Below are positions 8,690 through 55,994 of a DNA stretch of 64,000 nucleotides, one piece after another. This stretch comes from Lamellibrachia columna (Eukaryota; Annelida; Polychaeta; Sabellida; Siboglinidae), in the NCBI GenBank assembly GCA_963662155.1, contig OY759262.1, forward strand, positions 65,272,763-65,336,762. Direction: 5' to 3'. Numbering within the stretch: the first letter of the stretch is position 1; every line of letters begins with the position of its first letter. The translations under genes and the position numbers were made by a program. The notes beneath the pieces were generated by a model. The model was given only the letters and a program-made list of their open reading frames with translations. It ran no database searches and was not told where the DNA came from.

Positions 8690-9298
8690 TGGCCGCCGAG
8701 CACTGGACCATCTCCCGACGGTGCACCAGACGGTCAGTGATGCCGTACAGGATCGCGTTGCCTTAATCAAGACGCGACGTCCCGAGCGAGTGCACTAGAC
8801 TCTTGCAAGCACCAGTTGTTAGGCTCGCGGGTATATTGGCGATGCGGAACAAGTTATAATAAGCGCCACGACAGGCGTTCAACACTTGAGCCAACGTGTC
8901 TAAACCGTTGGCCAGAACAACACCGATGTCGCGAACAGTCAACTTCAGTGGTGAACCCGCAAACACCAATATTCAATACCTCACCAGGCGAACGTAGACT
9001 GGAAGAAAGAAAAACGATGGCTTCCGTTTTCGCTTCGTTCAGTAGACGTCGATTGTCGGTCAGCCAGTCTTAAGTCTCGCACACATTCATCGACATGTAG
9101 TAGCGCGACTGTGTCTCAGGTATCAAGTAGTTATACTCCAAACAGCCCAATCTTGAGCTAACGCAGGAGTTTGGACCAACGGCTTTTAGTGTCTCTTCCG
9201 AAAGACACGGGTGTGGTTAGATGGCGGACACTCAGCGTAGAGTTGGGTGTCATCCGCGTATATGTGGTAGTGGATATGGTGTTGTTTGAAAATGTGTG
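8690..9298 (-). mobile_element. CR1-like RT, downstream part (motif C to C-terminus)
   Basis: On the minus strand this reads HYHIYADDTQLY (YADD at 9249-9260), then WLTDNRRLLNEAKTEAIVF, then VRDIGVVL, then SLVHSLGTSRLD and the tail ITDRLVHRREMVQCSAARV, with several frameshifts and stops. These are the palm, thumb and C-terminal blocks of a CR1-clade RT. The upstream part of the same gene is at 21603-21750. The 12.3-kb element at 9299-21596 separates them. Confidence 0.88.
9293..9298. repeat. Target-site duplication, left copy (TGTGTG)
   Basis: Identical to 21597-21602. Joining the RT halves with a single copy keeps the frame: FAH from the upstream part continues as IFKQHHIHYHIYADD. Confidence 0.8.
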
Positions 9299-10220
9299 AG
9301 TAGGATGTCTTTTTGAAACATAAAAAAATGGCAAGATTTGGGGCTCATTCTGATTGGTTGAAATTTGAAATGGAGCGTTCTGATTGGTCGTGCGCTTATT
9401 GCCGCTAGGGGCGCCACCGTATAATCCCCTATTATCGCTCAAATGGCAAAATTTGGGGCACTTTCTGATTGATCGAGAGCAGTTTCACCACCAGGGGGCA
9501 CCACGGGGGGGGTAATTGTGTCGACGGATCTGATTGGTCGAGAACTATCACGTGACCTATGACGTCACAGCTCATTTGCATAAATTAGCATAAATTACAC
9601 CGTTTTGTAGTGAAACCGTCACCAGGGGGCGCAACGTGTCATCCCCTATTATCGCCCCCGAGACATTGTTTTGCGGTAATATTGTCGCCAGGGGCGCTAC
9701 GTGTCAAACGTGTCGACGGTTCTGATGGGTCGAGAGCCGTCACGTGACCTATGACGTCACAGCTCTTCGTTTGCATGTCACGTGACCTATGAGCCTATAT
9801 TTGCATAAATTAGCATATATTGCACCCTTTTGTGGTGAAACTGTCACCAGGGGGCGCTACGGGTCAATTGTGTCGACGGTTTGTGACCTAGTTTCGTCTG
9901 TTCTGATTGGTCGAGAGCCTTTTGTGGTGAAACCGTCACAACGAGGCGCTACCGGTCAAATGTTTCGACGGTTTGTGACCTAGTTTCGACTGTTTTGATT
10001 GGTCGAGAGCCGTCACGTGACCTATGACGTCACAGCTCATTTACATAATTTTGCATAAATTACACCGTTTTGTAGTGAAACCGTCACCAGGGGGCGCCAC
10101 GAGGTAATCCCCTATTATCGCCCCTGAGGCACTGTTTTGCGGTAATGGTGTCGCCAGAGGGCGCTACGGATCAAGTGTGTCGACGGTTCTGATTCGTCGA
10201 GAGCCGTCACAAGTGTGAAT
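9299..10220 (+). repeat. Left outer arm: repeated CTCF-like/E-box/CRE/octamer cassette
   Basis: About five imperfect repeats. Each combines GATTGGTCGAGAG (reverse CCAAT), TCACGTGA (9548, 9740, 9778, 10013), TGACGTCA (9560, 9752, 10025), ATTTGCAT (9574) and a CTCF-core-like CACCAGGGGGCGC (9488, 9619, 9844, 10084; shorter CGCCAGAGGGCGCT at 10152 and a variant at 9686). Mirrored at about 20790-21596. The motif matches are direct reading; function as binding sites is untested. Confidence 0.8.
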
Positions 10221-10227
10221 ACAATTG

Positions 10228-10410
10228 CCAGTTGGGGTTGGGGTTAGTAACCCTAATTCTATCGTCTGTAGTGAACCCTAATACGAACCCTGTAGGGTTA
10301 GTAACCCTAATGAAAGGTCAAAGGTCACCGACCTTTTGTACTTATTCAACTGCCAGTTGGGGTTAGGGTTAGTAACCCTAATTCGATCGTCTGTAGTGAA
10401 CCCTAATACG
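10228..10410 (+). repeat. Telomere-like TTAGGG/CCCTAA palindromic segment
   Basis: Contains several GGGTTAGTAACCCTAA blocks, each a small palindrome of telomere-type repeats, plus AACCCTAATACGAACCCT. Mirrored at about 20588-20770. It looks like an interstitial telomere-like motif built into the element, not a true telomere. Confidence 0.8.
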
Positions 10411-10414
10411 CGAC

Positions 10415-11062
10415 GTATGTCGTTTCGCGCGGACACCTACGTATCGTCTATAATGATACTAGTCTACAAGAACACCGCGAGTCTAAAGGTCAAAAGGTCA
10501 AGGTCAACAAAACAAACACCGCCGCTTTCTGGAACGTTCGAACGAAGTCACGCCTTTTCACTCAGCTAGCAGACTGAAACCTAGCGGACGAAAATTCGTG
10601 CATCCAGCGGGAAAAACGTAGCCGTGCATGTAAGCTATAAGACGCATATCGCATCGTTGCATTATATCGAGAACGTTTCGACGTATATCGTTTCGCGTCG
10701 ACACCTACGTATCGTCTATAATGATACTAGTCTGCAAGAACACCGCGAGGTCAAAAGGTCAAAAGGTCAAGGTCAACAAAACAAACACCGCCTCTTTCTG
10801 GAACGTTCGAACGAAGTCACGTCTTTTCACCCAGCTAGCAGACTGAAATATAGCGGACGAAAGTTCGTGCATCCAGTGGGAAAAACGTAGCCGTGCATGT
10901 AAGCTATAAGACGCATATCGCATCGTTGTATTATATCGAGAACTTTTCGACGTATGTCGTTTCGCGAAGGTCAAGGTCACCGCCGCTTTCTGGAACGTTC
11001 GAACGAAGTCATGGAATTTTCCATAAACATCGCTAGGTCTAAAGGTCAAAAGGTCAAGGTCA
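10415..11062 (+). repeat. Three ~240-bp modules with heat-shock-element and AGGTCA clusters
   Basis: Each module contains TTCTGGAACGTTC, which fits the three-pentamer heat shock element TTCnnGAAnnTTC (10527, 10796, 10988). Each also has clustered AGGTCA half-sites (10487, 10495, 10501; 10748, 10756, 10764, 10770; 10967, 10973; 11043, 11051, 11057). A perfect DR1 pair lies just upstream at 10315-10327. Modules also share ACGTATCGTCTATAATG and CTAGCAGACTGAAA. Mirrored at about 19935-20580. Confidence 0.8.
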
Positions 11063-11166
11063 AACCAGTTTTCCCGCGAAATGTGTCCAGCTGCATGTCC
11101 TTATTTGGTATTGTTCTGCATGCCGTACACGTGATGTTCACGTGCTACGCGCGTGCTGTACGTCAG

Positions 11167-11214
11167 AACCGGTTCAAACCGGTTCAAACCGGTTCAAACT
11201 GGTTCAAACCGGTT
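11167..11214 (+). promoter_or_regulatory. Five 10-bp-phased Grainyhead/CP2-like sites (left arm)
   Basis: AACCGGTT at 11167, 11177, 11187 and 11207, and AACTGGTT at 11197, one exactly every 10 bp. AACCGGTT is the published Grainyhead-family consensus. The exact helical phasing is seen directly. Binding is inference. Confidence 0.6.
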
Positions 11215-11289
11215 CAATCCGGGAAAAACCCAGGAAACAAGTGCACCGTGAGCAGTGGCGACTGACTTGTGCGTTCCCGTTCCCACGCA

Positions 11290-12282
11290 GCAGACATTTA
11301 CCACTGTGTGATATGCGTGGAGACATTGACCACAATGTGACATACATGGAGACATTGACTGCTATGTGACATGTATGGAGGCATTTACCGCTGTGTGATA
11401 TGTATGGAGACGTTCACCACCATGTGACATGTGTGGATACATTTACCCCTGTGTGATATGTATGGAGACATTTGACACCATGTGGTATGCATGAAGACAT
11501 TGACTGCCATGTGACATGCTTGGAGACATTGACTGTCATGTGTTGGAAGTCTGCAAGTTGGAAGTTTGTGCTTTGGAATTTGCAAATTGGAAGTTCTCCA
11601 CTCCACTCCACTCAACTCCACTTTGAAAGTTTATGTTATGAAAGTTTGCAAGTTGAAAGTTTGCTTCATCGAACACACATGTTTTGAAAGTTTGTGTCAT
11701 GAAAATTTGTTTGGAGACATTGACTGCCATGTGACATGCATGGAGAAATTGACCGCCATGTGACATGCATGGAGACATTTACCGCTGTGTGATATGCGTG
11801 GAGACATTGACCACAACGTGACATGCATGGAGACATTGACTGGTATGTGACATGCATGGAGACATTTACCGCTGTGTGATATGTATGGAGACGTTCACCA
11901 CCATGTAATATGTGTAGAGACATTTACCCCTATGTGATATGTATGGAGACATTTGACACCATGTGATATGCGTGTAGACATTGACCGTCATTTGACATGC
12001 ATGGAGACATTTACCACTGTGTGATATGTATGGAGACATTTGACACCATGTGATATGCGTGGAGACATTGACCACCATGTGACATGCATGGAGACATTGA
12101 CCACCATGTGATACGCATGGAGACATTTGACACCGTGTGATATGCATGGAGACATTGACTACCATGTGACATGCATGGATACATTGACCACCATGTGATA
12201 TGCATGGAGACATTTGACACCGTGTGATATGCATGGAGACATTTGACAACCATGTGACATGCATGGAGAAATTGACCGCCAT
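11290..12282. repeat. 29-bp minisatellite, left arm block 1
   Basis: Tandem units built on CATGTGACATGCATGGAGACATTGACC with variants (GTGTGATATG, TTTACCGC). A short block at about 11535-11710 is replaced by the GGAAGTTTG-type repeat. Because 29 is not a multiple of three, reading frames cycle and stay open; the resulting His/Cys/Met-rich peptides are not genes. Confidence 0.92.
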
Positions 12283-12955
12283 TTTTGAAAGTTTATGTTA
12301 TGAAAGTTTGTAAGTTGGAAGTTTTGGAAGTTTGCTTCACGTCACACACACGTTTTGAAAGTTTATGGTATGAAAGTTTGTACGTTGGAAGTTTGCTTCA
12401 CCGCACACACATTTTGTGTGAAGTTTGCGAGTTGGAAGTCTGCAAGTTGGAAGTTTTAGCTTTGGAAGTTTGCATATTGGAAGTTCTCCACTCCACTCCC
12501 CCCCTCGAAGTTGTGTAAAGTTGTACGAAGTTGTGTGAAGTTTGCGAGTTGGAAGTCTGCCAGTTGGAAGTTTGTGCTTTGGAAGTTTGCAAATTGGAAG
12601 TTTGCTTCACCGCACACACATGTTTTGAAAGTTTATGTTATGAAAGTTTGTAAGTTGGAAGTTTGCTTCTCCGCACACACATGTTTTGAAAGTTTGTGTC
12701 ATGAAAATAAATTTGTAAGTTGGAAGTTTGTGATGTGAAAAGTTCACGTTTTGAAAGTTTATGTTATGAAAGTTTGTAAGTTGGAAGCTTGCTTCACCGC
12801 ACACACATGTTTTGAAAGTTTGTGTTATAAACATTTTTAAATTGGAAGTTTGTGATGTGACAAGTTTATGTTATGAAAGTTTGTAAGTTGGAAGTTTGCT
12901 TCACCGCACACGCACATGTTTTGAAAGTTTGTGTTGTGAAACATTTGTAAGTTGG
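12283..12955. repeat. GAAAGTTTG/GGAAGTTTG minisatellite, left arm
   Basis: Degenerate tandem blocks of AAGTTGGAAGTTTG, TTATGTTATGAAAGTTTG and CACCGCACACACATG. Mirrored twice in the right arm (about 16095-16790 and 17655-18412). Confidence 0.9.
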
Positions 12956-13220
12956 AAGATTGGTCTATTTGACATTGGTCAGCCACTGTTGACATACTTT
13001 AACTTGTACGCTCCCACTCGTCTTGTCTTTTTAATATTGGTCAGTCACTGTTGGCAGACTTTAACTGGTGCGCTCCCACTCGTCTTGTCTTTTTGACATT
13101 GGTCAGTCACTGTTGGTAGACTTTGACTTGTGCGCTCCCACTCGTCTTGTCTTTTTGACATTGGTCAGGTATTGTTGGTGGACTTTAGCTTGTGCGCTCC
13201 CACTTGTCTTGTCTTTTTGA
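12956..13220. repeat. ~62-bp minisatellite, 4 copies, left arm
   Basis: Units of GACATTGGTCAGTCACTGTTGG...CGCTCCCACTCGTCTTGTC. Mirrored in the right arm at about 15850-16110 and 17395-17650. Confidence 0.9.
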
Positions 13221-14250
13221 CATGGTATGCATGGAGACATTTGACACCATGTGACATGCATGGATACATTGACCGCTGTGTGATATGTATGGAGACATTG
13301 ACCACCATGTGGTATGCATGGAGATATTTACCACTGTGTGATATGGAGACATTGACCGCCATGTGACATGTATGGAGACATTTGACACCATGTGGAATGC
13401 ATGGAGACATATGACATGCGTGGAGACATTGACTGCGATGTGACGTGCATGGAGACATTGACCGCCATGTGACATGCATGGAGACATTGACTGCCATATG
13501 ACATACATGGAGACATTGACCACCATGTGACGTGCATGGAGACATTGACCGCCATGTGACATGCATGGAGACATTGACTTCCATATGACATACATGGAGA
13601 CATTGACTACCATGTGACGTGCATGGAGACATTGACCGCCATGTGACATGCATAGGGACAGTTACCGCTGTGTGATATGTATGGAGACATTTGACACCAT
13701 GTGACATGCATGGAGACATTTACCAATGTGTGGTATGCGTGGAGACATTGACCACAATGTGACATGCATGGAGACATTGACTGCTATGTGACATGTATGT
13801 AGACATTTACCACTATGTGGTATGTATGGAGACGTTTACCACCATATGATATGTGTGGAGACATTTACCCCTGTGTGATATGTATGGAGACATTTGACAC
13901 CATGTGATATGCGTGTAGACATTGACCCTCATGTGACATGCATGGAGACATTTACCACTGTGTGATATGTATGGAGACATTTTACACCATGCGATATGTG
14001 ACATTGACCACCATATGATATGCATGGAGACATTTGATACCATTTGATATGCATGGAGACATTGACTACCATGTGACATGCATGGAGACATTGACCACCA
14101 TGTGACATGTATAGAGAAATTTACCGCCATGTGACATGCATGGATACATTTACCGCTGTGTGATATGTATGGAGACATTCACCATCATGTGATATGTGTG
14201 GAGACATTTACGCCTGTGTGATATGTATGGAGACATTTGACATCATGTGA
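13221..14250. repeat. 29-bp minisatellite, left arm block 2
   Basis: Same unit family as 11290-12282. It runs to the axis of the palindrome. Confidence 0.92.
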
Positions 14251-14282
14251 CAGTGGTAAATGTCTCCATACATATCACACAG
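14214..14282. repeat. Palindrome axis: 25-bp perfect stem, 19-bp loop
   Basis: 14214-14238 pairs base for base with 14258-14282 across the loop 14239-14257. Repeat orientation flips here from GGAGACATT to AATGTCTCC. This is the actual turn-round point, slightly left of the unique centre. Confidence 0.85.
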
Positions 14283-14309
14283 TGGTCAATGTCTCCACGC
14301 ACATCACAT

Positions 14310-14597
14310 GACAACCGCCCGTGTTCCGTGGTGGCGGCGGCATGGAAAGAGGTGTAACCCAACCTGTTGTCAGTTGTATAACCCTAGATAGCCTGCATCG
14401 AGACAGTGCTGTTTGCCAACCCTATCATCACATAGTTGTTGGCTCGTAGATAGCCTGCATTGAAACGTTGTGTATGACAATATCTTGTTTTCTTCAAGTT
14501 GTGTGTGACAATGTCTTGTTTTCTTCAAGTTGTGTGTGGCAGTGTCTTGTTTTCTTCAAGTTGCGTATGACAGTGTCTTGTTTTCTTCAAGTTGTGT
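14310..14597. other. Unique central segment with a 31-bp repeat, 4 copies
   Basis: The only part of the element with no mirror copy. The first ~150 bp are unique (GTGGCGGCGGCATGG). The rest is about four copies of a ~31-bp unit containing GTCTTGTTTTCTTCAAG. No open frame of note. Confidence 0.75.
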
Positions 14598-15190
14598 TCA
14601 ATGTCTCCACGCATATCACACAGTGGTAAATGTCTCCACACATATCACATGGTGGTGAATGTCTCCATGCATGTCACATGGCAGTCGATGTCTCCATGCA
14701 TGTCACATGGCGGTCAATGTCTCCATGCATACCATATGGCGGTCAATGTCTGCATACATATCAAACAGTGGTAAATGTCTCCATGCATGTCACATGACGG
14801 TCAATGTATCCACGCATATCACATTATGTCAAATGTCTCCATACATATCACACAGGCGTAAATGTCTCCACACATATCACATGATGGTGAATGTCTCCAT
14901 ACATATAACACAGCGGTAAATGTATCCATGCATGTCACATGGCGGTCAATTTCTCTATACATGTCACATGGTGGTCAATGTCTCCATGCATGTCACATGG
15001 TAGTCAATGTCTCCATGCATATCAAATGGTATCAAATGTCTCCATGCATATCATATGGTGGTCAATGTCACATATCGCATGGTGTAAAATGTCTCCATAC
15101 ATATCACACAGTGGTAAATGTCTCCATGCATGTCACATGAGGGTCAATTTCTACACGCATATCACATGGTGTCAAATGTCTCCATACATA
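14598..15190. repeat. 29-bp minisatellite, inner right arm
   Basis: Inverse orientation of the left-arm unit (AATGTCTCCATGCATGTCACATGG). Its innermost ~210 bp have no partner in the left arm. Confidence 0.9.
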
Positions 15191-18100
15191 TCACACAGGG
15201 GTAAATGTCTCCACACATATCATATGGTGGTAAACCTCTCCATACATACCACATAGTGGTAAATGTCTACATACATGTCACATAGCAGTCAATGTCTCCA
15301 TGCATGTCACATTGTGGTCAATGTCTCCACGCATACCACACATTGGTAAATGTCTCCATGCATGTCACATGGTGTCAAATGTCTCCATACATATCACACA
15401 GCGGTAAATGTCCCTATGCATGTCACATGGCGGTCAATGTCTCCATGCACGTCACATGGTAGTCAATGTCTCCATGTATGTCATATGGAAGTCAATGTCT
15501 CAATGCATGTCACATGGCGGTCAATGTCTCCATGCACGTCACATGGTGGTCAATGTCTCCATGTATGTCATATGGCAGTCAATGTCTCCATGCATGTCAC
15601 ATGGCGGTCAATGTCTCCATGCACGTCACGTCGCAGTCAATGTCTCCACGCATGTCATATGTCTCCATGCATTCCACATGGTGTCAAATGTCTCCATACA
15701 TGTCACATGGCGGTCAATGTCTCCATATCACACAGTGGTAAATATCTCCATGCATACCACATGGTGGTCAATGTCTCCATACATATCACACAGCGGTCAA
15801 TGTATCCATGCATGTCACATGGTGTCAAATGTCTCCATGCATACCATGTCAAAAAGACAAGACAAGTGGGAGCGCACAAGCTAAAGTCCACCAACAATAC
15901 CTGACCAATGTCAAAAAGACAAGACGAGTGGTAGGCGCACAAGTCAAAGTCTACCAACAGTGACTGACCAATGTCAAAAAGACAAGACGAGTGGGAGCGC
16001 ACCAGTTAAAGTCTGCCAACAGTGACTGACCAATATTAAAAAGACAAGACGAGTGGGAGCGTACAAGTTAAAGTATGTCAACAGTGGCTGACCAATGTCA
16101 AATAGACCAATCTTCCAACTTACAAATGTTTCACAACACAAACTTTCAAAACATGTGCGTGTGCGGTGAAGCAAACTTCCAACTTACAAACTTTCATAAC
16201 ATAAACTTGTCACATCACAAACTTCCAATTTAAAAATGTTTATAACACAAACTTTCAAAACATGTGTGTGCGGTGAAGCAAGCTTCCAACTTACAAACTT
16301 TCATAACATAAACTTTCAAAACGTGAACTTTTCACATCACAAACTTCCAACTTACAAATTTATTTTCATGACACAAACTTTCAAAACATGTGTGTGCGGA
16401 GAAGCAAACTTCCAACTTACAAACTTTCATAACATAAACTTTCAAAACATGTGTGTGCGGTGAAGCAAACTTCCAATTTGCAAACTTCCAAAGCACAAAC
16501 TTCCAACTGGCAGACTTCCAACTCGCAAACTTCACACAACTTCGTACAACTTTACACAACTTCGAGGGGGGGAGTGGAGTGGAGAACTTCCAATATGCAA
16601 ACTTCCAAAGCTAAAACTTCCAACTTGCAGACTTCCAACTCGCAAACTTCACACAAAATGTGTGTGCGGTGAAGCAAACTTCCAACTTACAAACTTTCAT
16701 ACCATAAACTTTCAAAACGTGTGTGTGACGTGAAGCAAACTTCCAAAACTTCCAACTTACAAACTTTCATAACATAAACTTTCAAAAATGGCGGTCAATT
16801 TCTCCATGCATGTCACACAGGGGTAAATGTCTCCACACATATCACATGGTGGTAAACGTCTCCATACATACCACATAGTGGTAAATGTCTACATACATGT
16901 CACATAGCAGTCAATGTCTCCATGCATGTCACATTGTGGTCAATGTCTCCACGCATATCACACATTGGTAAATGTCTTCATGCATGTCACATGGTGTCAA
17001 ATGTCTCCATACATATCACACAGCGGTAAATGTCCCTATGCATGTCACATGGCGGTCAATGTCTCCATGCACGTCACATGGTAGTCAATGTCTCCATGTA
17101 TGTCATATGGAAGTCAATGTCTCCATGCATGTCACATGGCGGTCAATGTCTCCATGCACGTCACATGGCAGTCAATGTCTCCACGCATGTCATATGGCAG
17201 TCAATGTCTCCATGCATTGCACATGGTGTCAAATGTCTCCATACATGTCACATGGCAGTCAATGTCTCCATATCACACAGTGGTAATTATCTCCATGTAT
17301 ACCACATGTTGGTCAATGTCTCCATACATATCACACAGCGGTCAATGTATCCATGCATGTCACATGGTGTCAAATGTCTCCATGCATACCATGTCAAAAA
17401 GACAAGACAAGTGGGAGCGCAAAAGCTAAAGTCCACCAACAGTACCTGACCAATGTCAAAAAGACAAGACGAGTGGGAGCGCACAAGTCAAAGTCTACCA
17501 ACAGTGACTGACCAATGTCAAAAAGACAAGACGAGTGGGAGCGCACAAGTTAAAGTCTGCCAACAGTGACTGACCAATATTAAAAAGACAAGACGAGTGG
17601 GAGCGTACAAGTTCAAGTATGTCAACAGTGGCTGACCAATGTCAAATAGACCAATCTTCCAACTTACACATTTTTCACAACACAAACTTTCAAAACATGT
17701 GTGTGTGCGGTGAAGCAAACTTCCAACTTACAAACTTTTATAACATAAACTTGTCACATCACAAACTTCCAACTTAAAAATGTTCATAACACAAACTTTC
17801 AAAACATGTGTGTGCGGTGAAGCAAGCTTCCAACTTACAAACTTTCATAACATAAACTTTCAAAACGTGAACTTTTCACATCACAAACTTCCAACTTACA
17901 AATTTTCATGACACAAACTTTCAAAACATGTGTGTGCGGAGAAGCAAACTTCCAACTTACAAACTTTCATAACATAAACTTTCAAAACATGTGTGTGCGG
18001 TGAAGCAAACTTCCAATTTTCAAACTTCCAAAGCCCAAATTTCCAACTGGCAGACTTCCAACTCGCAAACTTCACACAACTTCGTACAACTTTGCACAAC

Positions 18101-18435
18101 TTCACACACCTTTACACAACTTCGCAGGCGTGGAGTGGAGTGGAGAACTTCCAATATGCAAACTTCCAAAGCTAAAACTTCCAACTTGAAGACTTCCAAC
18201 TCGCAAACTTCTCACAAAATGTGTGTGCGTTGAAGCAAACTTCCAACTTACAAACTTTCATAACATAAACTTTCAAAACGTGTGTGTGACGTGAAGCAAA
18301 CTTCCAACTTACACATTTTTCACAACACAAACTTTCAAAACATGTGTGTGCGGTGAAGCAAACTTCCAAAACTTCCAACTTACAAACTTTCATAACATAA
18401 ACTTTCAAAAATGGCGGACAATTTCTCCATGCATG
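15190..18435. repeat. Tandem duplication of a ~1.62-kb block in the right arm
   Basis: 15190-16812 and about 16813-18435 align at a constant offset of 1622 bp from the first 29-bp units to the AACTTTCAAAAATGGCGG boundary. Each copy holds a 29-bp block, the 62-bp repeats and the GAAAGTTTG-type repeats. The left arm has one copy only, so the duplication happened after the palindrome formed and explains most of the arm-length difference. The second copy has deletions inside its 29-bp block and an extra CACACACCTTTACACAACTT near 18100. Confidence 0.8.
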
Positions 18436-19700
18436 TCACATGGTTGTCAATGTCTCCATGCATGTCACACGGTGTCAAATGTCTCCATGCATATCACATG
18501 GTGGTCAATGTCTCCATGCATGTCACATGGTGGTCAATGTCTCCACACATATTACATGGTGGTGAACGTCTCCATACATATCACACAGCGGTAAATGTCT
18601 CCATACATGTCACATACCAGTCAATGTCTCCATGCATGTCACGTTGTGGTCAATGTCTCCACGCATATCAAACAGCGGTAAATGTTTCCATGCATGTCAC
18701 ATGGCGGTCAATGTCTCCATGCATGTCACATGGCAGTCAATGTCTCCAAACAAATTTTCATGACACAAACTTTCAAAACATGTGTGTTCGGTGAAGCAAA
18801 CTTTCAACTTGCAAACTTTCGTAACATAAACTTTCAAAGTGGAGTGGAGTGGAGTGGAGTGGAGTGGAGAACTTCCAATTTGCAAATTCCAAAGCACAAA
18901 CTTCCAACTTGCAGACTTCCAACACATGACAGTCAATGTCTCCAAGCATGTCACATGGCAGTCAATGTCTTCATGCATACCACATGGTGTCAAATGTCTC
19001 CATGCATATCACATGGCTGTCAATGTCTCCATGCATGTCACATGGTGTCAAATGTCCCCACACATATCACATGGTGGTGAATGTCTCCATACATATCACA
19101 CAGCGGTAAATGTCTCCATGCATGTCACATGGTGGTCAATGTATCCATGTATGTCACATGACAGTCAATGTCTCCATGCATGTCACATGGCAGTCAATGT
19201 CTCCATGCACACCACATGGTGTCAAATGTCTCCATACATATCACACAGGGGTAAATGTCTCCACACATGTCACATAGTGGTGAACGTCTCCATACATATC
19301 ACACAGCGGTAAATGTATCCATACATGTCACACAGCAGTCAATGTCTTCATGCATGTCTCCACGCATATCACGCAGTGGTAAATGTCTCCATGCATGTCA
19401 CATGGTGTCAAATGTCTCCATACATATCACACAGCGGTAAATGTCTCCATGCATGTCACATGACGGTCAATGTCTCCATGCATGTCACTTGACAGTCAAT
19501 GTCTTCATGCATACCACATGGTGTAAAATGTCTCCATACATATCACACAGGGGTAAATGTATCCACACATATCACATGGTGGTGAACGTCTCCATACATA
19601 TCACACAGCGGTAAATGTCTCCATACATGTCACTTAGCAGTCAATGTCTCCATGTATGTCACATTGTGGTCAATGTCTCCACGCATATCACACAGTGGTA
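18436..19700. repeat. 29-bp minisatellite, outer right arm
   Basis: Mirror of 11290-12282. It includes a five-copy GGAGT run at about 18838-18868 where the left arm has the corresponding CCACT run shorter. Confidence 0.9.
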
Positions 19701-19784
19701 AATGTCTGCCGCGTGGGAACGGGAACGCACAAGTCAGTCGCCACTGCTCACGGTGCACTTGTTTCCTGGGTTTTTCCCGGTTTG

Positions 19785-19832
19785 AACCGGTTTGAACCAG
19801 TTTGAACCGGTTTGAACCGGTTTGAACCGGTT
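19785..19832 (-). promoter_or_regulatory. Five 10-bp-phased Grainyhead/CP2-like sites (right arm)
   Basis: AACCGGTT at 19785, 19805, 19815 and 19825 and AACCAGTT at 19795: the exact mirror of 11167-11214, so both arms keep all five sites and the phasing. Confidence 0.6.
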
Positions 19833-19934
19833 CTGACGTACAGCACGCGCGTAGCACGTGAACATCACGTGTACGGCATGCAGAACAATACCAAATAAGG
19901 ACATGCAGCTGGACACATTTCGCGGGAAAACTGG

Positions 19935-21596
19935 TTTGACCTTGACCTTTTGACCTTTAGACCTAGCGATGTTTATGGAAAATTCCATGACTTCGTTGGA
20001 ACGTTCCAGAAAGCGGCGGTGACCTTGACCTTCGCGAAACGACATACGTCGAAAAGTTCTCGATATAATACAACGATGCGATATGCGTCTTATAGCTTAC
20101 ATGCACGGCTACGTTTTTCCCACTGGATGCACGAACTTTCGTCCGCTATGTTTCAGTCTGCTAGCTGGGTGAAAAGACGTGACTTCGTTCGAACGTTCCA
20201 GAAAGCGGCGGTGTTTGTTTTGTTGACCTTGACCTTTTGACCTTTTGACCTCGCGGTGTTCTTGCAGACTAGTATCATTATAGACGATACGTAGGTGTCG
20301 ACGCGAAACGATATACGTCGAAAAGTTCTCGATATAATGCAACGATGCGATATGCGTCTTATAGCTTACATGCACGGCTACGTTTTTCCCGCTGGATGCA
20401 CGAATTTTCGTCCGCTAGGTTTCAGTCTGCTAGCTGAGTGAAAAGGCGTGACTTCGTTCGAACGTTCCAGAAAGCGGCGGTGTTTGTTTTGTTGACCTTG
20501 ACCTTTTGACCTTTAGACTCGCGGTGTTCTTGTAGACTAGTATCATTATAGACGATACGTAGGTGTCCGCGCGAAACGACATACGTCGCGTATTAGGGTT
20601 CACTACAGACGATCGAATTAGGGTTACTAACCCTAACCCCAACTGGCAGTTGAATAAGTACAAAAGGTCGGTGACCTTTGACCTTTCATTAGGGTTACTA
20701 ACCCTACAGGGTTCGTATTAGGGTTCACTACAGACGATAGAATTAGGGTTACTAACCCTAACCCCAACTGGCAATTGTATTCACACTTGTGACGGCTCTC
20801 GACGAATCAGAACCGTCGACACACTTGATCCGTAGCGCCCTCTGGCGACAACATTACCGCAAAACAGTGGCTCAGGGGCGATAATAGGGGATTACCTCGT
20901 GGCGCCCCCTGGTGGCGGTTTCACTACAAAACGGTGTAATTTATGCAAATTTATGCAAATGAGCTGTGACGTCATAGGTCACGTGACGGCTCTCGACCAA
21001 TCAAAACAGTCGAAACTAGGTCACAAACCGTCGACACCATTGACCCGTAGCGCCTCCTGGTGACAGTTTCACCACAAAAGGGTGCAATATATGCTAATTT
21101 ATGCAAATATAGGCTCATAGGTCACGTGACATGCAAACGAAGAGCTGTGACGTTATAGGTCACGTGACGGCTCTCGACCCATCAGAACCGTCGACACGTT
21201 TGACACGTAGCGCCCCTGGCGATAATATTACCGCAAAACAATGTCTCGGGGGCGATAATAGGGGATGACACGTTGCGCCCCCTGGTGACGGTTTCACTAC
21301 AAAACGGTGTAATTTATGCTAATTTATGCAAATGAGCTGTGACGTCATAGGTCACGTGATGGTTCTCGACCAATCAGATCCGTCGACACAATTACCCCCC
21401 ACGTGAAACTGCACTCGACCAATTAGAAAGAGCCCCAAATTTTGCCATTTGAGCGATAATAGGGGATTATACGGAGTCGCCCCTAGCGGCAATAAGCGTA
21501 CGACCAATCAGAACGCTCCATTTCAAATTTCAACCAATCAGAATGAGCCCCAAATCTTGCCATTGTTTGATGTTTCAAAAAGACATACATACTACT
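19935..21596 (-). repeat. Right outer arm: mirrored HSE/AGGTCA, telomere-like and CTCF-like cassettes
   Basis: The HSE-like TTGGAACGTTCCAG forms, TGACCTT half-sites, CCCTAACCCCAA blocks and cassettes repeat in reverse order. CTCF-core-like sites are on the minus strand at about 20834, 20902 (GCGCCCCCTGGTGG, a full consensus match), 21049, 21209 and 21274. CRE TGACGTCA is at 20967, with ATGCAAAT at 20943 and 20953. One CRE is mutated (GACGTTAT near 21150). Confidence 0.8.
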
Positions 21597-21602
21597 TGTG
21601 TG
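21597..21602. repeat. Target-site duplication, right copy (TGTGTG)
   Basis: Matches 9293-9298. It directly abuts the ACTACT terminus. Confidence 0.8.
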
Positions 21603-21750
21603 CAAAAAGTAAGCAGTATATGTTGAATAACATCGGCCCAAGGGCTGAGCCCTGTGGAACACCGTGGCGAGTGAATCTAAGAGCTGATGTTGCTTGCCGT
21701 ATCTTTACCACATTCGTTCTGTCCACGAGGTACGATCTTTACGATACGTT
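21603..21750 (-). mobile_element. CR1-like RT, upstream part (motif B)
   Basis: The minus strand reads SYLVDRTNVVKI, then GVPQGSALGPMLFNIY (motif B at 21634-21663), ending at FAH next to the TGTGTG duplication. It is in frame with the YADD part at 8690-9298 once the palindromic element and one duplication copy are removed. Confidence 0.85.
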
Positions 21751-22180
21751 ATATTTCATCAGCATAAACAATTATTTAAGTCAGTAATAACATAACTCAT
21801 TGACACACAAGTTAACCTCGAAAAAACCAGTGACAATAAAATATAACTTTTATTACGCTACATGAACGGAATACTTACTGAAAGTTCTCAGCAAGCGTTT
21901 TTTAACAAGGGTTTAGGTTTTCCTTGCAATTTCCAAGAAGACAAGAAATTATGCCTCCACTCCTGCAAGCACAATTTGGTTTGCGCGGCGAATTTGGTTT
22001 GCGGGTTATGTAAATCATGCGCGATTAATCTTACCTTTTAATTGTATGTGAAGTATATTTATAAGGGGTCGTAAGACGACCCCTTAAGATGGAATGGAAT
22101 GGTCTACAGCAATTTTCAAAATAATATCTCAAGCACTATGCTAGAAACTGCTATAGAACCCTGTCGGTGTCAGGTACACC
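21751..22180. other. Non-coding, with an 11-bp-stem hairpin
   Basis: No gene recognised. A perfect hairpin lies at 22062-22086 (arm TAAGGGGTCGT, loop AAG) just before the satellite. Confidence 0.65.
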
Positions 22181-22184
22181 ACCA

Positions 22185-23790
22185 CTATCATACACAACGG
22201 CACCGCTATCGTACACAACGGCACCGCTATCATACACAACGGCACCACTATCATACACAACGGCACCACTATCGTACACAACGGCACCGCTATCGTACAC
22301 AACGGCACCGCTATCATACACAACGGCAACGCTATCATACACAACGGCACCGCTATCGTACACAACGGCACCGCTATCGTACACAACGGCACCGCTATCA
22401 TACACAACGGCACCACTATCATACACAACGGCACCGCAATCGTACACAACGGCACCGCTATCATACACAACGGCACCGCTATCATACACAACGGCACCGC
22501 TATCATACACAACGGCACCGCTATCGTACACAACGGCACCGCTATCGTACACAACGGCACTGCTATCATACACAACGGCACTGCTATCATACACAACGGC
22601 ACCGCTATCATACACAACGGCACCGCTATCATACACAACGGCACCGCTATCATACACAACGGCACCGCTATCATACACAACTGCACCGCAATAATACATA
22701 ACGGCACCGCTATCGTACAAAACGGCACCGCTATCATACACAACGGCACTGCTATCATACACAACGACACTGCTATCGTACACAACGGCACCGCTATCCT
22801 ACACAACGGCACTGCTATCATACACAACGGCACCGCTATCATACACAAAGGCACCGCTATCATACACAACGGCACCGCTATCATACACAACGGCACCGCT
22901 ATCATACACAACGGCACCGCTATCATACACAACGGCACCGCTATCGTACACAACGGAACTGCTATCGTACACAACGGCACTGCTATCGTACACAACGACA
23001 CCGCTATCATACACAACGGCACTGCTATCGTACACAACGGCACCGCTATCATACACAACGGCACCGCTATCATACACAACGGCACCGCTATCATACACAA
23101 CGGCACCGCTATCATACACAACGGCACCGCTATCGTACACAACGGCACTGCTATCGTACACAACGGCACCGCTATCGTACACAACGGCACCGCTATCGTA
23201 CACAACGGCACCGCTATCGTACACAACGACACTGCTATCGTACACAACGGCACCGCTATCATACACAACCGCAATGCTATCGTACACAACGGCACCGCTA
23301 TCATACACAACGGCACCGCTATCATACACAACGGCACTGCTATCCTACACAACGGCACCGCATTCGTACACAACGACACCGCTATCGTACACAACGACAC
23401 TGCTATCGTACACAACGGCACTGCTATCGTACACAACGGCACTGCTATCGTACACAACGGCACCGCTATCATACACAACGGCACCGCTATCGTACACAAC
23501 GGCACCGCTATCATACACAACGGCACCGCTATCATACACAACGGCACCGCTATCATACACAACGGCACCGCTATCATACACAACGGCACTGCTATCACAC
23601 ACAACGGCACCGCTATCATACACAACGGCACCGCTATCATACACAACGGGACTGCTATCGTACACAACGGCACCGCTATCACACACAACGGCACTGCTAT
23701 CGTACACAACGGCACCGCTATCATACACAACGGCACCGCTATCATACACAACGGCACCGCTATCATACACAACGGCAACGCTATCACACA
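22185..23790. repeat. 21-bp satellite, ~76 copies
   Basis: Head-to-tail unit ACGGCACCGCTATCATACACA with mostly A/G and C/T variants (ATCATAC/ATCGTAC, CACC/CACT). As 21 is divisible by three, most frames are open on both strands, including a 548-codon minus-strand frame of a hydrophobic heptapeptide; these are artefacts. It abuts the last exon of Mx copy A and would lie in its 3' untranslated region or just beyond. Confidence 0.95.
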
Positions 23791-32039: not shown

Positions 32040-32462
32040 GAAATATATATTGAGGAAACAAAATCAAGAAATGACTGGACAGATGAACAAGTGCTGGGAT
32101 ACTCTGAAACATTTATGTTGAAGAGCTGCAGTCTGTGATAAACAGTTTGCCCAGCCTCCATCACTGAAGTCAAGAGAGCAAACTGTGATGGAAATCCACA
32201 TTTGCTAAACGCATTGTTTTCCCTATCTTGGCAATGTCATGTCCAAAGATGGAGACTGTTCTAATGACATCAATAATATGCTTGGAAATGCATGAGGTTC
32301 ATTTCAGAAACTCACAAAAACCTGCCGGTCAAAGGGTATAATTACAAATATTAAAATAAAAATTGTCAACAATTATTTTATACCCGTGCTTCTCTATAGC
32401 TCTGAAACATGGAAAGCAACAACAACAACTATTGGACAGAAACTAACAACTTTCCAGAAACG
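32040..32462 (+). mobile_element. RTE-like RT fragment
   Basis: The plus strand reads YLGNVMSKDGDCSNDINNMLG, KLTKTCRSKGIITNIKIKIVNNYFIPVLLYSSETWKA in pieces, then TTFQKR; a few stops interrupt it. It is tail-adjacent to the minus-strand jockey/CR1-like RT. The same pair occurs inverted at 57470-58910. It ends exactly where the Mx inverted arm begins. Confidence 0.75.
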
Positions 32463-32955
32463 TAAGTATACACAAATACGCGTTTGACGTTCTTGTGCTC
32501 GAAAGGACGAGTGTATGAAGAAACGAAACATTTAAATCAGTTTTGAAGTTATAGTCCGTCACACGATGTTCTCAAAATGTATAGATTGTTGCCACCTCGG
32601 TTTATGGCACTTTATTGCAACCAAAATGTAGGAAAATGTGTTTACTTTACATTTCTGCCTGTTACACTGTTACACTGTTACACTGTTACACTGCCCTCAA
32701 TTACCCTGAATCATGTTCAATTTCATAAAATATGGACCGACCCCATTTCCATAAATATTAAACACAGTAGTTCGGCAGCCGAGGTGGGTAACTTCTTTTA
32801 ACCGCATAAAGATGTGTATTGTAGAATATTCATCTCTAGCCTAATTATATGTAATGATGTCTATATTTTGGTACCAAAAATATTAGATAAAATGTTTTGC
32901 TAACTACTTGCGGAGCTCGAGATATAGTCGTTTTTCGAAAGTCTACAAAATTTTA

Positions 32956-33043
<88 letters not shown>
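32956..33043. repeat. (AT)n microsatellite, left Mx arm
   Basis: Pure TA dinucleotides; counterpart at 42403-42514. Confidence 0.95.
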
Positions 33044-33045
<2 letters not shown>

Positions 33046-33857
33046 CCGCCATCTTTACATTTTTTTCAAAATACTATTGGTGGCATTGAACTCCGGAAAA
33101 ACATATAAAAAGACAATTTAATCACCTTGGTCTCTGAGTTTGGCCGCCATCTTGGTTTTTTTACATTGTTTAAAAACCAAAGGTGGAATCGATTTCCACA
33201 TGCATGAAAACATAAACAGATATTGTAATCATATATGTGTCTTATCTGTTTGCAAAAATATGATAATAAGTTGATTTTAACGATCGTGTGGCGGCCATCA
33301 TAGCTATTTCAATTTTTTTCAATGTTCCAACGGGTGAAACTTGCGTACCAACCTGGTTGTCATTATATGTATGCTAGAGATAATATTCAACAATAAAACA
33401 TTTTATCTGATGAAAAGAAGTTACCCCACTCGGCTGCCAAACTACTGTGTTTATAATTTATGGAAATGGGGTGGGTCCATATTTGATTAAATTGAACATT
33501 TTCAAGGTAATTGCTAACCGGGGGTGGGGGTTGGTCACAGTGGATTCCGGATGACTTTGTGGCGGATAGACCCCCACAGATAGACCCCCATAGATACATG
33601 GGGTGGAAAAGATGTGAATGGAAAATGCTAGTCTTTAGTGACATAATTTAGTACTTGTAGCGGGTGGCTGCCGGAGACAGTTAAATAGTGAATTATAGAT
33701 ATTACTTGTACACACCATTTGGGGCCCGGCATGCTTGTTGTGATGATGTGTGTCGTTTTGATATGTATGTTTGCATAATTGCTGGTAATAGTTTGCTTAA
33801 TTGAATGTCATTTTTTGGGCCTATTTCACTCTACGCTGCGCTGTTATTCTACATAAA

Positions 33858-33905
33858 TACACACACACACACATACGCACGCACGCACGCGCGCGCACGC
33901 ACGCT

Positions 33906-33958
<53 letters not shown>

Positions 33959-33973
33959 TCACTCACTCACTCA

Positions 33974-34024
<51 letters not shown>

Positions 34025-34035
34025 CACACACACGA
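33858..34035. repeat. (AC)n/(ACGC)n/(ACTC)n compound microsatellite
   Basis: AC tracts flank ACGC and ACTC runs. The right arm carries a plain (GT)n at the corresponding place (41380-41474), so the tract has evolved independently. Confidence 0.95.
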
Positions 34036-34155
34036 ACTGGATAAACTGCGATGTATAGGGTTTTAAATACGAATAACTGAACTATAATTATGTTAAGCTG
34101 TTCTATACACCGATTACTGTAAAATATATTCGATTACATCGTAACCGAACTGTAC

Positions 34156-34273
34156 CTAAATCAGCATTGTAGATGTCGTACTGGGCGAACGGATTTCTCT
34201 CCATCTTGAGCAGTTTCCGCAGAGCGTCCTGACACGCATTGTCTGCCTCGACACGCAGTCGGTACACGAGGCT
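34156..34273 (-). CDS. Mx: Mx copy A stalk exon
   Basis: Acceptor ACACCCAG, donor G/GTACAG, 118 bp, phase 0 in and 1 out. It reads SLVYRLRVEADNACQDALRK then LLKMERNPFAQYDIYNADL. The LLKMERNPFxQ block is the conserved stalk segment of Mx proteins that precedes the variable loop. Intact, unlike its partner 41130-41247. Confidence 0.85.
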
Positions 34274-34631
34274 CTGGGTGTAAAGATGACGATACAATGC
34301 AATACTATGTTCTCATGCAGAAACGGAGGCGGAGATGAACTTCAAAGTATTAATTGTTGTTTGTTTGAAGTTAGTCACTAAACAGTGCATCTATGTGTCT
34401 TACATATTGTCCAAATACAAACAAATAGTCTAGTAAGAGACGTCCACAGGCAATAGACATCTCGTTTCCAATAGCACTCTTGCAGATAGCTTAGTAGTGC
34501 AAGCTAGGATCGTAGCATCGATGTCTTATGCTTGAGTTAATTAATTAATCGAGCTGAATAAGTAAAACAATCAATGCATCAATAAGGATAGGTGATATCT
34601 CCATTACGACCTTCTGTAGAACGCTTCAAAC

Positions 34632-34870
34632 CTTAATTTTCCGATCAAGGTTTGGGAGATTTTCAAACGTGTTGGTTGCAAGTTTGCCAAATATATCCGC
34701 AACCAACTGACTGACGTCCTGTAGAGTTTCCATCAATGGTTCTTCATATTTCTCCACAATCTCCACAATGAGAGCTTCACAGATGGAATACTTGAGGAAC
34801 CCCGGCAGCTCTCGACCGCGCTGGCCGCTTGAAAGCTCCATTATGTGTTCAATGTAAGTTTGACTTCGCG
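34632..34870 (-). CDS. Mx: Mx copy A stalk exon with RGRELPGF motif
   Basis: A CTTGCAG acceptor opens 239 bp that read RSQTYIEHIMELSS, GQRGRELPGFLKYSICEAL, EKYEEPLMETLQDVSQLV and FENLPNLDRKIK. RGRELPGF is the Mx stalk signature. The donor AAG/GTTTGA is weak and identical in both copies. No stops inside. Confidence 0.88.
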
Positions 34871-35029
34871 CTGCAAGACAAAGAAATATTACAGAATAGC
34901 AGTTCCATTGTCACAGCAGGTTCATTGTCATAGCAGCTTCATTGTCATAAAATGTCAGTAGTCAAAATATAATTGTCATTGTTGTTATATATCAGTCTGT
35001 TTATGCGCATTGGCATATGTATGTATATT

Positions 35030-35140
35030 CCATTACAACATATACAACAACATCTACAACAACATGTACAACAAAATCTACAACAACATCTACAACAACA
35101 TCTACAACAACATCTGCTGCCGCCGCCGCCGCTGCTTCTA
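35030..35140. repeat. 12-bp CAACATCTACAA repeat plus GCC run, left Mx arm
   Basis: Short tandem repeat in the intron, mirrored and longer at 40238-40380 (TTGTTGTAGATG). Confidence 0.9.
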
Positions 35141-35218
35141 CGCTGTTGTAATATATTGTATAATAAATTAAATACACGTTTTTATTGTAATGTCATGTAT
35201 GAATGTCAGGCTACTTAC

Positions 35219-35345
35219 CAGGAGATAGTGCACGTATTTCTTATGCCAGTTGTTCGTAATATTCTCTGCATCTAGGAACGAGTCTGAGTCTTCCCAAACC
35301 CTTGTATTCCCTACGGACGACACTCTTGGTGTCATCCGCGTACTG
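35219..35345 (-). pseudogene. Mx: Mx copy A exon with nonsense codon
   Basis: 127 bp between a GCTTCAG acceptor and CCTG/GTAAGT donor. It reads QYADDTKSVVRREYKGLG, then PRCREYYEQLA, then TAA at 35241-35243, then EIRALSP. Copy B has CCA (Pro) at the stop position, and phases agree with the neighbours. Confidence 0.82.
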
Positions 35346-35559
35346 CTGAAGCAGCTGTTTGTGTCACAGTCAACAGTACTCCTATTAGTATGTTCACCAA
35401 CCATCAGTGAACATGTAAAAATTGAGGTTTACAGAACATATTGGTAAACCGTCCCATGCCGTATGTATGTACGTAGCGCCCTCTGGCACATAACTGGTCA
35501 GTTTGCTTACATTGAACAATAGTAGAAGACACGCATAGCTTTGCAAACAATCTACGATT

Positions 35560-35651
35560 CATGGTAATTCTCCACAATAAGAGCCTCACAGATGAAATAC
35601 TTCAGGAACCTCGGCAGCTCTACACTACTGCGCTGGCCGCTTGAAAGCTTA
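35560..35651 (-). pseudogene. Truncated extra copy of the Mx stalk exon, left arm
   Basis: The minus strand reads LSSGQR, then VELPRFLKYFICEALIVEN and stops matching. It duplicates the first third of the 34632-34870 exon and sits at the inner end of the arm. Mirrored at 39733-39815. Confidence 0.8.
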
Positions 35652-39732: not shown

Positions 39733-39815
39733 TCAAGCGGCCAGCGCAGTAGTGTAGAGCTGCCGAGGTTCCTGAAGTATTCCATCTGTGAGGCTCTTAT
39801 TGTGGAGAATTACCA
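39733..39815 (+). pseudogene. Truncated extra copy of the Mx stalk exon, right arm
   Basis: Reads SSGQR, then VELPRFLKYSICEALIVEN and stops matching, as in the left-arm copy at 35560-35651. It was therefore present before the inverted duplication. Confidence 0.8.
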
Positions 39816-40033
39816 TCAATCGTTGATAGTTTGCAAAGCTATGCGTGTATTCTACTATTGTCCAATGTACGCAAACTGACCAGTTATGTGCCAGAGGGCG
39901 CTTCGTACATACATACGGCATGGGACGGTTTACCAATATGTTCTGTAAACCTCAATTTTTACATGTTCACTGATGGTTGGTGAACATACTAATAGGAGTA
40001 CTGTTGACTGTGACACAAACAATGCTGCTTCAG

Positions 40034-40160
40034 CAGTACACGGATGACACCAAGAGTGTCGTCCGTGGGGAATACAAGGGTTTGGGAAGCCTCAGACTCG
40101 TTCCTAGATGCAGAGAATATTACGACCAACTGGCACCAGAAATACGTGCACTATCTCCTG
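40034..40160 (+). CDS. Mx: Mx copy B exon (intact counterpart of 35219-35345)
   Basis: 127 bp, acceptor GCTTCAG, donor CCTG/GTAAGT, open throughout: QYTDDTKSVVRGEYKGLG, then REYYDQLAPEIRALSP. Confidence 0.82.
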
Positions 40161-40237
40161 GTAAGTAGCCTGACATTCATACATGACATTACAATACAAA
40201 CGTGTATTTAATTTATTATACAATATATTACAACAGC

Positions 40238-40380
40238 GTAGAAGCAGCGGCGGCGGCGGCAGCAGATGTTGTTGTAGATGTTGTTGTAGATGTTGTTGTA
40301 GATGTTGTTGTAGATGTTGTTGTAGATGTTGTTGTAGATGTTGTTGTAGATGTTGTTGTAGATGTTGTTGTAGATGTCGT
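40238..40380. repeat. 12-bp TTGTTGTAGATG repeat, right Mx arm
   Basis: About 11 copies after a GGCGGC run; the Val-Asp-Val frame is an artefact. Longer than its left-arm mirror. Confidence 0.93.
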
Positions 40381-40544
40381 AATGGAATATATATACATAT
40401 GCCAATGCGCATAAACAGACTGATATATAACAACAACGACAATTATATTTTGACTACTGACATTTTATGACAATGAAGCTGCTATGACAATGAACCTGCT
40501 CTGACAATGGAACTGCTATTCTGTAATATTTCTTTGTCTTGCAG

Positions 40545-40783
40545 CGCGAAGTCAAACTTACATTGAACACATAATGGAGCTTTCAAGCGGCCAGCGCGGT
40601 CGAGAGCTGCCGAGGTTCCTCAAGTATTCCATCTGTGAGGCTCTTATTGTGGAGATCGTGGAGAAATATGAAGAACCACTGATGGAAACTCTACAAAACG
40701 TCAGTTAGTTGGTTGGGGATACATTTGGCAAACTTGCTACGAACACGTTTGAAAATCTCCCAAACCTTGATAGGAAAATTAAG
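40545..40783 (+). pseudogene. Mx: Mx copy B stalk exon with nonsense codon
   Basis: Same 239-bp frame as 34632-34870 (GQRGRELPRFLKYSICEAL), but CAG is TAG at 40706-40708. The motif reads RELPRF, not RELPGF. Confidence 0.85.
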
Positions 40784-41129
40784 GTTTGAAGCGTTCTACA
40801 GAAGGTCGTAATGGAGCTATCACGTATCCTTATTGATGTATTGATTGTTTTACTTATTCAGCTCGATTAATTAATTAATTCAATCATAAGACATCGATGC
40901 GACGATCCTAGCTCTACAAGACTGCTATTGGAAACAAGATGTCTATTGCCTGTGGACGTTTCTTACTAGCTAGACTATTTGTTTGTATTTGGACAATATG
41001 TAAGACACATAGATGCACTCTTTAGTGACTAACTTCAAACAAACGTCAATTAATACTTTGAAGTTTATCTCCGCCTCCGTTTCTGATTGATACCATAGTA
41101 TTGCATTGTATCGTCGTTACTACGTCCAG

Positions 41130-41247
41130 GGCCTCGTGGACCGACTGCGTGTCGAGGCAGACAATGCGTGTCAGGACGCTCTGCGGAAACTGCTCAAGAT
41201 GGAGAGAAATCCGTTCGCGTAAGACGAAATCTACAATGCTGATTTAG
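41130..41247 (+). pseudogene. Mx: Mx copy B stalk exon with stop and lost donor
   Basis: GLVDRLRVEADNACQDALRK, then MERNPFA and TAA (41220-41222). The original donor position after 41247 is CT instead of GT. The same substitutions create GTAAGA at 41219-41224, a good donor consensus, but splicing there would enter the next exon out of frame. Confidence 0.8.
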
Positions 41248-41376
41248 CTACAGTTCGGTTACGATGTAAAGTCTGTATGTAGCTAATATATGTTACAGTA
41301 TTCGGTGTATAGATGTGATCATAATTAAAGTTCAGTTGTTCATATTTAAAGCCCTATACATCGCAGTTTATCCAGT

Positions 41377-41476
<100 letters not shown>

Positions 41477-42400
41477 AAAAATATTTGTTATGCGGGTTGC
41501 TGCTTTAACAATGAGTAAATTACAATATCATAAAAATAAAAATTCGCAGTAGCAAAACATGAATTATGCATAATAGTTTGTCACATGAAATTTATAAACG
41601 GGTTAAAACTCGACCTTCGTTGCCCCCGTCGGTTTATGGTACCAAACCGAAGGAAAATATACATCATCACAGCAAGCATGCCGGGCCCCAAATGGTGTGT
41701 ACAAGTAATATCTACAATTCACAGATGTATTATGCTAGACTAGCAAATAATGATAATGATACTATTTAACTGTCTCCGGCAGCCACCCGCTACAAGTACT
41801 AAATTATGTCACTAATGACTAGCATTTTCCATTCACATTTTTACCCCCATGTATCTGTGGGGGTCTATCCGCCACAAGGTCATCCGGAATCCACGGTGAC
41901 CAACCCTCATCCCCCGGTTAGCAATTACCTTGAAAATTTTCAATTTCATAAAATATGGACCCACCCCATTTCCATAAATTATAAACGCAGTAGTTTGGCC
42001 GCCGAGTGGGGTAACTTCTTTTCATTAGATAAAATGTTTTATTGTTGAATATTCATCTCTAGCATACATATAATGACAACCAGGTTGGTACGCAATTTTC
42101 ACCCGTGGGAACATTGAAAAAAAATGGAAATATCTAAGATGGCCGCCTCACGATCGTTAAAATCAACTTATTATCATATTTTTGCAAACATATAAGACAC
42201 ATATATGATTACAATATCTTTTTACGTTTTCTTGCATGTGGAATTCGATTCCACCGTTGTTTTTTAAACAATGTAAAAAAACAAGATGGCGGCCAAACTC
42301 AGAGACCAAGGTGATTAAATTGTCTTTTTTATATGTTTTTGCGGAGTTCGATGCCACTAATAGTATTTTGAAAAAAAATGTAACGAAAGCAAGATGGCGG

Positions 42401-42516
<116 letters not shown>

Positions 42517-42778
42517 TAAAACTATTGTAGACTTTCGAAAAATTACTACATCTCGAGCACCGCAAGTAGTTAGCAAAACATTTTATCTAATATTTTTGAT
42601 GCCAAAATATAGACATCATTACATATAATTAGGCTAGAGATGAACATTCAACAAAACACATCTTTATGCGGTTAAAAGAAGTTACCCAACTCGGCTGCTG
42701 AACTACTGTGTTTAATATTTATAGAAATGGGGTGGGTCCATATTTAAGGAAATTTAACATGATTCAGGGTAATTGCGG

Positions 42779-42862
42779 GCAGTGTAGCAGTGTAACAGTG
42801 TAACAGTGTAACAGTGTAACAGTGTAACAGTGTAACAGTGTAACAGTGTAACAGTGTAACAG
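42779..42862. repeat. 8-bp AGTGTAAC repeat, ~10 copies
   Basis: The left arm has four or five copies at 32660-32695, so the array changed length after duplication. Confidence 0.93.
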
Positions 42863-43075
42863 GCAGAAATGTAAAGTAAATACATTTTCCTACATTTTGG
42901 TTCCAATAAAGTGCCATAAACCGAGGTGGCAACAATCTATACATTTTGAGAGCATCGTGTGACGGACTATAACTTCAAAACTGATTTAAATGTTTCGTTT
43001 CTTCATACACTCGTCCTTTCGAGCACAAGAACGTCAAACGCGTGTTTGTGTATACTTACGTTTCCCACCAAATAG

Positions 43076-55990: not shown

Positions 55991-55994
55991 GGCG

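Follow-up and report, generated by a model that had tools for sequence, protein, structure and literature searches.

A probable gene-less, palindromic Polinton/Maverick derivative in the genome of Lamellibrachia columna

A stretch of 64,000 nucleotides from Lamellibrachia columna (assembly GCA_963662155.1, contig OY759262.1, positions 65,272,763 to 65,336,762 of the forward strand; hereafter the window) contains a CR1-like reverse transcriptase (RT) sequence interrupted by a 12,298-bp element whose two arms mirror each other, and the locus raises the question of what kind of element this is and how it came to be inserted. A preliminary description, made from the letters of the window, had suggested a non-autonomous mobile element of undescribed architecture, mobilised in trans. 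We propose that it derives from a Polinton/Maverick, has become palindromic and lost its genes, and was served in trans, a reading to which we give a probability of roughly 0.85; mobilisation in trans is suggested because the element is gene-less and cleanly inserted.

The boundaries of the element are as the preliminary description had placed them, with TGTGTG on both sides and AGTAG..CTACT ends (Table 1). Its first letters are AGTAGGATGT and its last letters ACATACTACT, and about 4 bp of AGTAGTATGTATGT are missing at the left end. When the flanks are joined at a single TGTGTG, one minus-strand frame, GVPQGSALGPMLFNIYCL...YADDTQLYA, crosses the junction (the RT motif names in this frame are presumed), so the frame is indeed restored on removal of the element and one duplication; the RT around the insertion is a degraded fragment, with stops on both sides. 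A related empty site is present in another RT copy, L037, which runs uninterrupted through the site at 84% identity with a single TGTGTG, and three more RT copies (L039-L041, 81-84%) also span it but are gapped there or immediately next to it. In the left flank, positions 9108-9211 are a different high-copy repeat of about 100 bp that abuts the RT fragment and takes 33 of the best 40 of 1,759 candidate flank-query matches, at 97-99%. Near the right flank lies a 21-bp satellite array, at 22180-22997 and beyond, in a scan that reached 23000.

The absence of genes from the element, also claimed before, is borne out. The only non-satellite open reading frame (ORF) submitted, 10903-11265, had no Pfam match at 0.1, and tblastn with seven Polinton query proteins gave no match and no coverage in the element; none of the DNA polymerase B (PolB), integrase, ATPase, protease and capsid genes of an autonomous Polinton was found in it. 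The remaining ORFs of at least 120 amino acids are satellite frames, the mirror ORF 19734-20096 and an ORF that crosses the right end, 21407-21787. Eight ORFs of the window compared with Pfam at 0.1 yielded one G protein-coupled receptor (GPCR), one weak RVT_1 match, one chance-level match and, for the other five, nothing.

The element belongs to a large family in its host genome, which measures 880 Mb. Used as genome queries, its outer 502 bp gave 64 matches (best 40 of 816 first-look candidates scored) and its centre 307 (best 40 of 599). We sampled 12 copies from the outer-end list, the window copy (WIN) included, and four from the centre list; L031/L035, whose left end was not located, was excluded from the counts, leaving 15 copies with both ends, among them C9d (L026/L027), C3 (L016/L017), N3 (L030/L034) and C13 (L022/L023). 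A 6-bp target-site duplication flanks all 15, and three of the duplications were scored by eye. Thirteen are exact (GCTGTC, GTCGCT, AATGTC, CACGTG, GCCGTC, CATAGC, AACGCC, CATATC, TATATA, TGTGTG, GCCGGA, ACCGCA and CTTGTA), TATATA being little informative as it sits within a TA repeat, and two have one mismatch, TCCGTC/TCCGTT in C10 and GACATA/GACATC in C9d. The ends start with AGTAGT in 26 of 30 cases, and those that deviate are all left ends (AGTAGG in WIN, ATTAGT in C1, AGAAGT in C15 and AGTATT in C3). Compared over 480 bp, the WIN ends share 93-96% identity with the ends of C13, a gene-bearing copy. Three marks of a Polinton/Maverick are present here, namely the 6-bp duplication, (AGT)2//(ACT)2 or AG..CT ends, and terminal inverted repeats of several hundred bp common to gene-bearing copies; for vertebrate Mavericks, passages of PMC8097293 likewise give (AGT)2//(ACT)2 ends and 6-bp duplications. 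The checks advised in the preliminary description bore it out: further copies with the same outer ends, 6-bp duplications, a related empty site and gene-bearing Polinton copies sharing the termini were all found.

Coverage of the seven query proteins by tblastn was determined for the 15 copies, which fall into three tiers. C9d covers at least 93% of each query and carries an integrase (rve at 1.7e-13 and Chromo at 9e-8), an ATPase (Adeno_IVa2 at 2.5e-5, above the Pfam cut-off), a polymerase that is 100% covered by the C5 polymerase query and a protease-like ORF. Integrase, packaging ATPase and PolB are thus found together in a partner copy, with a weak protease match. C9a likewise covers at least 93% of each query other than the integrase (56%) and the protease (23%); its ORF contains Chromo and lacks rve. 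In five copies (C5, C7, C10, C13 and C9c), coverage is 49-100% for the polymerase query, 58-62% for the protease-like one and zero for integrase, ATPase, P5 and both queries of putative capsid proteins, and their satellites lie on the same side of the polymerase as the other genes of C9a and C9d. The remaining eight copies cover none of the seven queries. Many of the 120 listed of 1850 relatives of the C5 polymerase ORF (66-93% identity) carry PF03175; the B-family motif labels that we place on this ORF are an assumption, and comparison of the polymerase ORF with PDB gave a single chance-level match (E 0.33). The homologues of the putative capsid ORFs, P0002 and P0003, are listed as hypothetical proteins or unnamed, with up to 93% identity for one of them to hypothetical proteins named from Lamellibrachia satsuma; this match would point to a siboglinid tubeworm as the probable host but, coming from a mobile gene, does not prove it. 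Among 20 ORFs from the fetched loci, one of which (L025:5694-6407) lies outside its element, 15 had no Pfam match. The ORF L022:7369-7926 (+), which lies inside C13, matches PF08646 (5.6e-11), the C-terminal domain of replication factor A.

Inspection of the window element itself reveals, from the outside in, a terminal inverted repeat, a telomere-like module, a 269-bp module, a 10-bp module and 29-, 61- and 62-bp minisatellites, followed by the mirror order; ten module probes matched nowhere else in the window. Inverted matches of 80% or more take in 98% of the bases of the element, against 0% for one shuffle and 4%, 25% and 0% for three other 12.3-kb stretches of the window, and the arms are 98.3% identical over 1,625 bp and 94.9% over 2,542 bp. 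The mirrored arms described previously are therefore upheld for nearly the whole element, with three departures from symmetry: the right arm has an extra r62-r61-r29 block of about 1.5 kb (15846-17391 and 17391-18756), the centre is unpartnered and the left end is about 4 bp short. The segment 14251-14818 is left unpaired by the main arm alignment. In other copies the sequence of 14251-14597 is where the satellite block ends on its inner side; the left-arm junction lies near 14250. With long inverted tandem-repeat arms and no coding capacity, the element has the structure of a foldback. The same inverted-match share is 100% in C1, 88% in N13 (one end outside the stretch), 84% in C9b and 24% in C15, and 0% in N6 and 8% in N3, of which only part of each was measured. 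Satellite blocks are one-sided in the five polymerase-only copies and two-sided and mirrored in WIN, C9b, C1 and N13; the gene-less copies C15, C3, N6 and N3 are asymmetric. Polinton polymerase sequence is also found on both flanks of C3, and directly at the right and about 1.9 kb off at the left of N3, and the 62-bp satellite occurs on both flanks of C13.

Ends and arms were compared as well. A tree was built from the 30 ends, 480 bp each, of the 15 copies; because left and right are set by the assembly strand, its informative part is the pairing within a copy. In all 15 copies the left end groups with its own right end as sister, and 13 of these pairs are starred, the others being WIN (87/75) and C1 (98/79); by plain identity, the right end of N6 and the left end of C9d tie with another copy. 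A tree constrained to keep all left ends together was rejected (p-AU 8e-59), as was a single clade of the eight gene-less copies (p-AU 0.007) or of the four palindromic copies (p-AU 0.003), clade tests that were run after a FastTree of the same data had been viewed. Sister ends would be predicted by self-synthesising replication and not by simple cut-and-paste. For the left arm of WIN, the own right arm is the best match in eight of 10 half-kilobase windows, in six of these with 98.9-99.8%, where the best of the other fetched copies reaches 86.9-98.2%; it is also the closest in three of four longer segments. The own arm gives the best match in 3/6, 4/6 and 5/9 windows of C9b, C1 and N13, respectively, mostly outer ones, and WIN, N13 and C9b differ in the junction at which the left arm meets the central block. 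These comparisons favour a history in which one arm was repeatedly copied into the other, with exchange between copies in addition.

Based on these data, we suggest how such an element could arise. Its cis requirements, a long terminal inverted repeat with (AGT)2-like ends, would have been kept, while the polymerase and integrase genes were lost and the interior was filled by mirrored satellite blocks. A protein-primed polymerase and an integrase would come in trans from gene-bearing Polintons of this genome, the integrase inserting the element and leaving the 6-bp duplication. During strand-displacement replication, the displaced strand may fold back within its own tandem repeats and prime on itself, so that one arm is copied into the other. 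We infer the supply in trans, the mode of replication and the fold-back step, and give the last, taken by itself, about even odds. Linear viruses form snap-back defective genomes by comparable fold-back copying, and the close identity of the arms in WIN fits such copying during replication.

Several observations weigh against this account. The protease-like ORF of C9d matches PF00770 at 0.027, below the Pfam cut-off, the capsid label on two of its ORFs is presumed, and neither the polymerase ORF nor the capsid-like ORFs tested matched Pfam at 0.01. The starred branches of the end tree, taken alone, are compatible with a single origin of the gene-less copies. In two of 10 windows of WIN another copy is better than the own right arm, and in C9b, C1 and N13 many inner satellite windows have a nearer match in other copies than in the opposite arm of the same copy, which points to exchange between copies or later rearrangement at work too. 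Chromosomal gene conversion between arms could also make ends and arms alike. This bears on an alternative for the mirror form only, in which an internal-deletion derivative of a Polinton became palindromic after integration by gene conversion and unequal exchange, with no fold-back replication. Long inverted repeats are expected to homogenise their arms, exchange between copies is visible in the inner satellites, and asymmetric gene-less copies exist; against this, all four palindromic copies have exact 6-bp duplications outside their mirrored ends, and the rejected single clades and differing junctions would require a repeated origin, although conversion in place could also arise repeatedly. 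On balance we consider mirroring after integration less likely than not, though a serious contender.

Other explanations fare much worse. A classical foldback element of the FB/TU/Tetris kind, from the Mutator or P superfamily, would share the long tandem-repeat inverted termini and lack of coding capacity that excerpts of PMC4079207 give for Tetris, but the duplications are of 6 bp here against 8-10 bp there and the ends are common to gene-bearing Polintons; it is very improbable, and the duplication length and Polinton partner led us to rule out a Mutator/P foldback. Slightly less probable still is a mis-joined inverted duplication in the assembly: long palindromes are difficult to assemble, yet the two arms are not identical (one has an extra block, and one a deletion at its end), the flanking duplications are exact, and three other palindromic copies lie on other contigs with duplications of their own. 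A simple MITE-like deletion form, which suits the asymmetric C15, C3, N6 and N3, was rejected for the palindromic window copy.

With respect to known systems, the element resembles Polintons/Mavericks, as far as passages of PMC8097293 describe them, in its (AGT)2-like ends, 6-bp duplications, terminal inverted repeats and termini common to gene-bearing copies, and differs in being gene-less, palindromic and minisatellite-filled. FB, TU and Galileo are known foldback elements. Excerpts of PMC4079207 state that most foldbacks belong to Mutator, and describe in them the long inverted tandem-repeat arms, absence of coding capacity and need for a partner in trans that are found here; unlike Tetris, for which they report 8-10 bp duplications and no partner, the window element has 6-bp duplications and shares its genome with a Polinton partner. 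Partner and putative parasite with the same ends in one genome would make supply in trans testable. No Polinton foldback with a same-genome partner was found in the literature searched, which lay outside Repbase and most subscription papers, and the phrases non-autonomous (or nonautonomous) Polinton or Maverick and miniature Polinton were absent from that literature, again outside most subscription papers. The architecture thus appears new in the narrow sense of a foldback on a Polinton/Maverick; the foldback structure as such, contrary to the broader claim made initially, is known from other transposons. Palindromic, or snap-back, defective genomes of linear DNA viruses have lost genes, carry one end duplicated in inverted form and keep their ends. 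The window element is alike in these respects and unlike them in being chromosomal, with target-site duplications. Tentatively, and at rather less than even odds, the palindromic gene-less copies may be subviral parasites of polintoviruses, defective genomes made repeatedly by fold-back self-priming in tandem repeats and replicated and inserted by the polymerase and integrase of full elements. If so, defective interfering molecules would have left a fossil record in an animal genome, and the polymerase-keeping, integrase-less copies would be an intermediate tier of subviral parasitism. Polintons would then resemble viruses that have helper-dependent parasites, a point relevant to the question of whether to regard them as transposons or as integrating viruses.

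Table 1. Features of the element and its insertion site (positions in the window).
Feature	Position	Strand	Remark
Whole element	9299..21596	.	12,298 bp, AGTAG..CTACT
Target-site duplication, left copy	9293..9298	+	TGTGTG
Target-site duplication, right copy	21597..21602	+	TGTGTG
CR1-like RT fragment, interrupted	9211..9298	-	YADD side
CR1-like RT fragment, interrupted	21603..21722	-	GVPQGSALGP side
Left terminal inverted repeat	9299..10210	+	common to gene-bearing Polinton copies
Telomere-like module, left	10219..10410	+	TTAGGGTTAGTAACCCTAA
269-bp tandem module, left	10411..11063	+	
10-bp repeat module, left	11100..11260	+	AACCGGTTCA
Left satellite block	11292..14250	+	29-bp, 61-bp, 62-bp minisatellites
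Non-mirrored centre	14251..14597	+	29-bp units in other orientation, spacer, 31-bp repeats
Right satellite block	14587..19707	-	mirror of left plus one extra r62-r61-r29 block
10-bp repeat module, right	19739..19899	-	
269-bp tandem module, right	19936..20588	-	
Telomere-like module, right	20589..20780	-	
Right terminal inverted repeat	20789..21596	-	

Elsewhere in the window, a second large inverted repeat (32457-35644 and 39733-43064) has arms that are 86-91% identical and about 4 kb apart; its outer edge begins at a GTAAGT-like splice donor, and it may be an inverted duplication of a gene segment. Two adjoining ORFs at 55953-56921 contain Rhodopsin-type GPCR sequence, the first with a 7tm_1 match at 3.9e-16.

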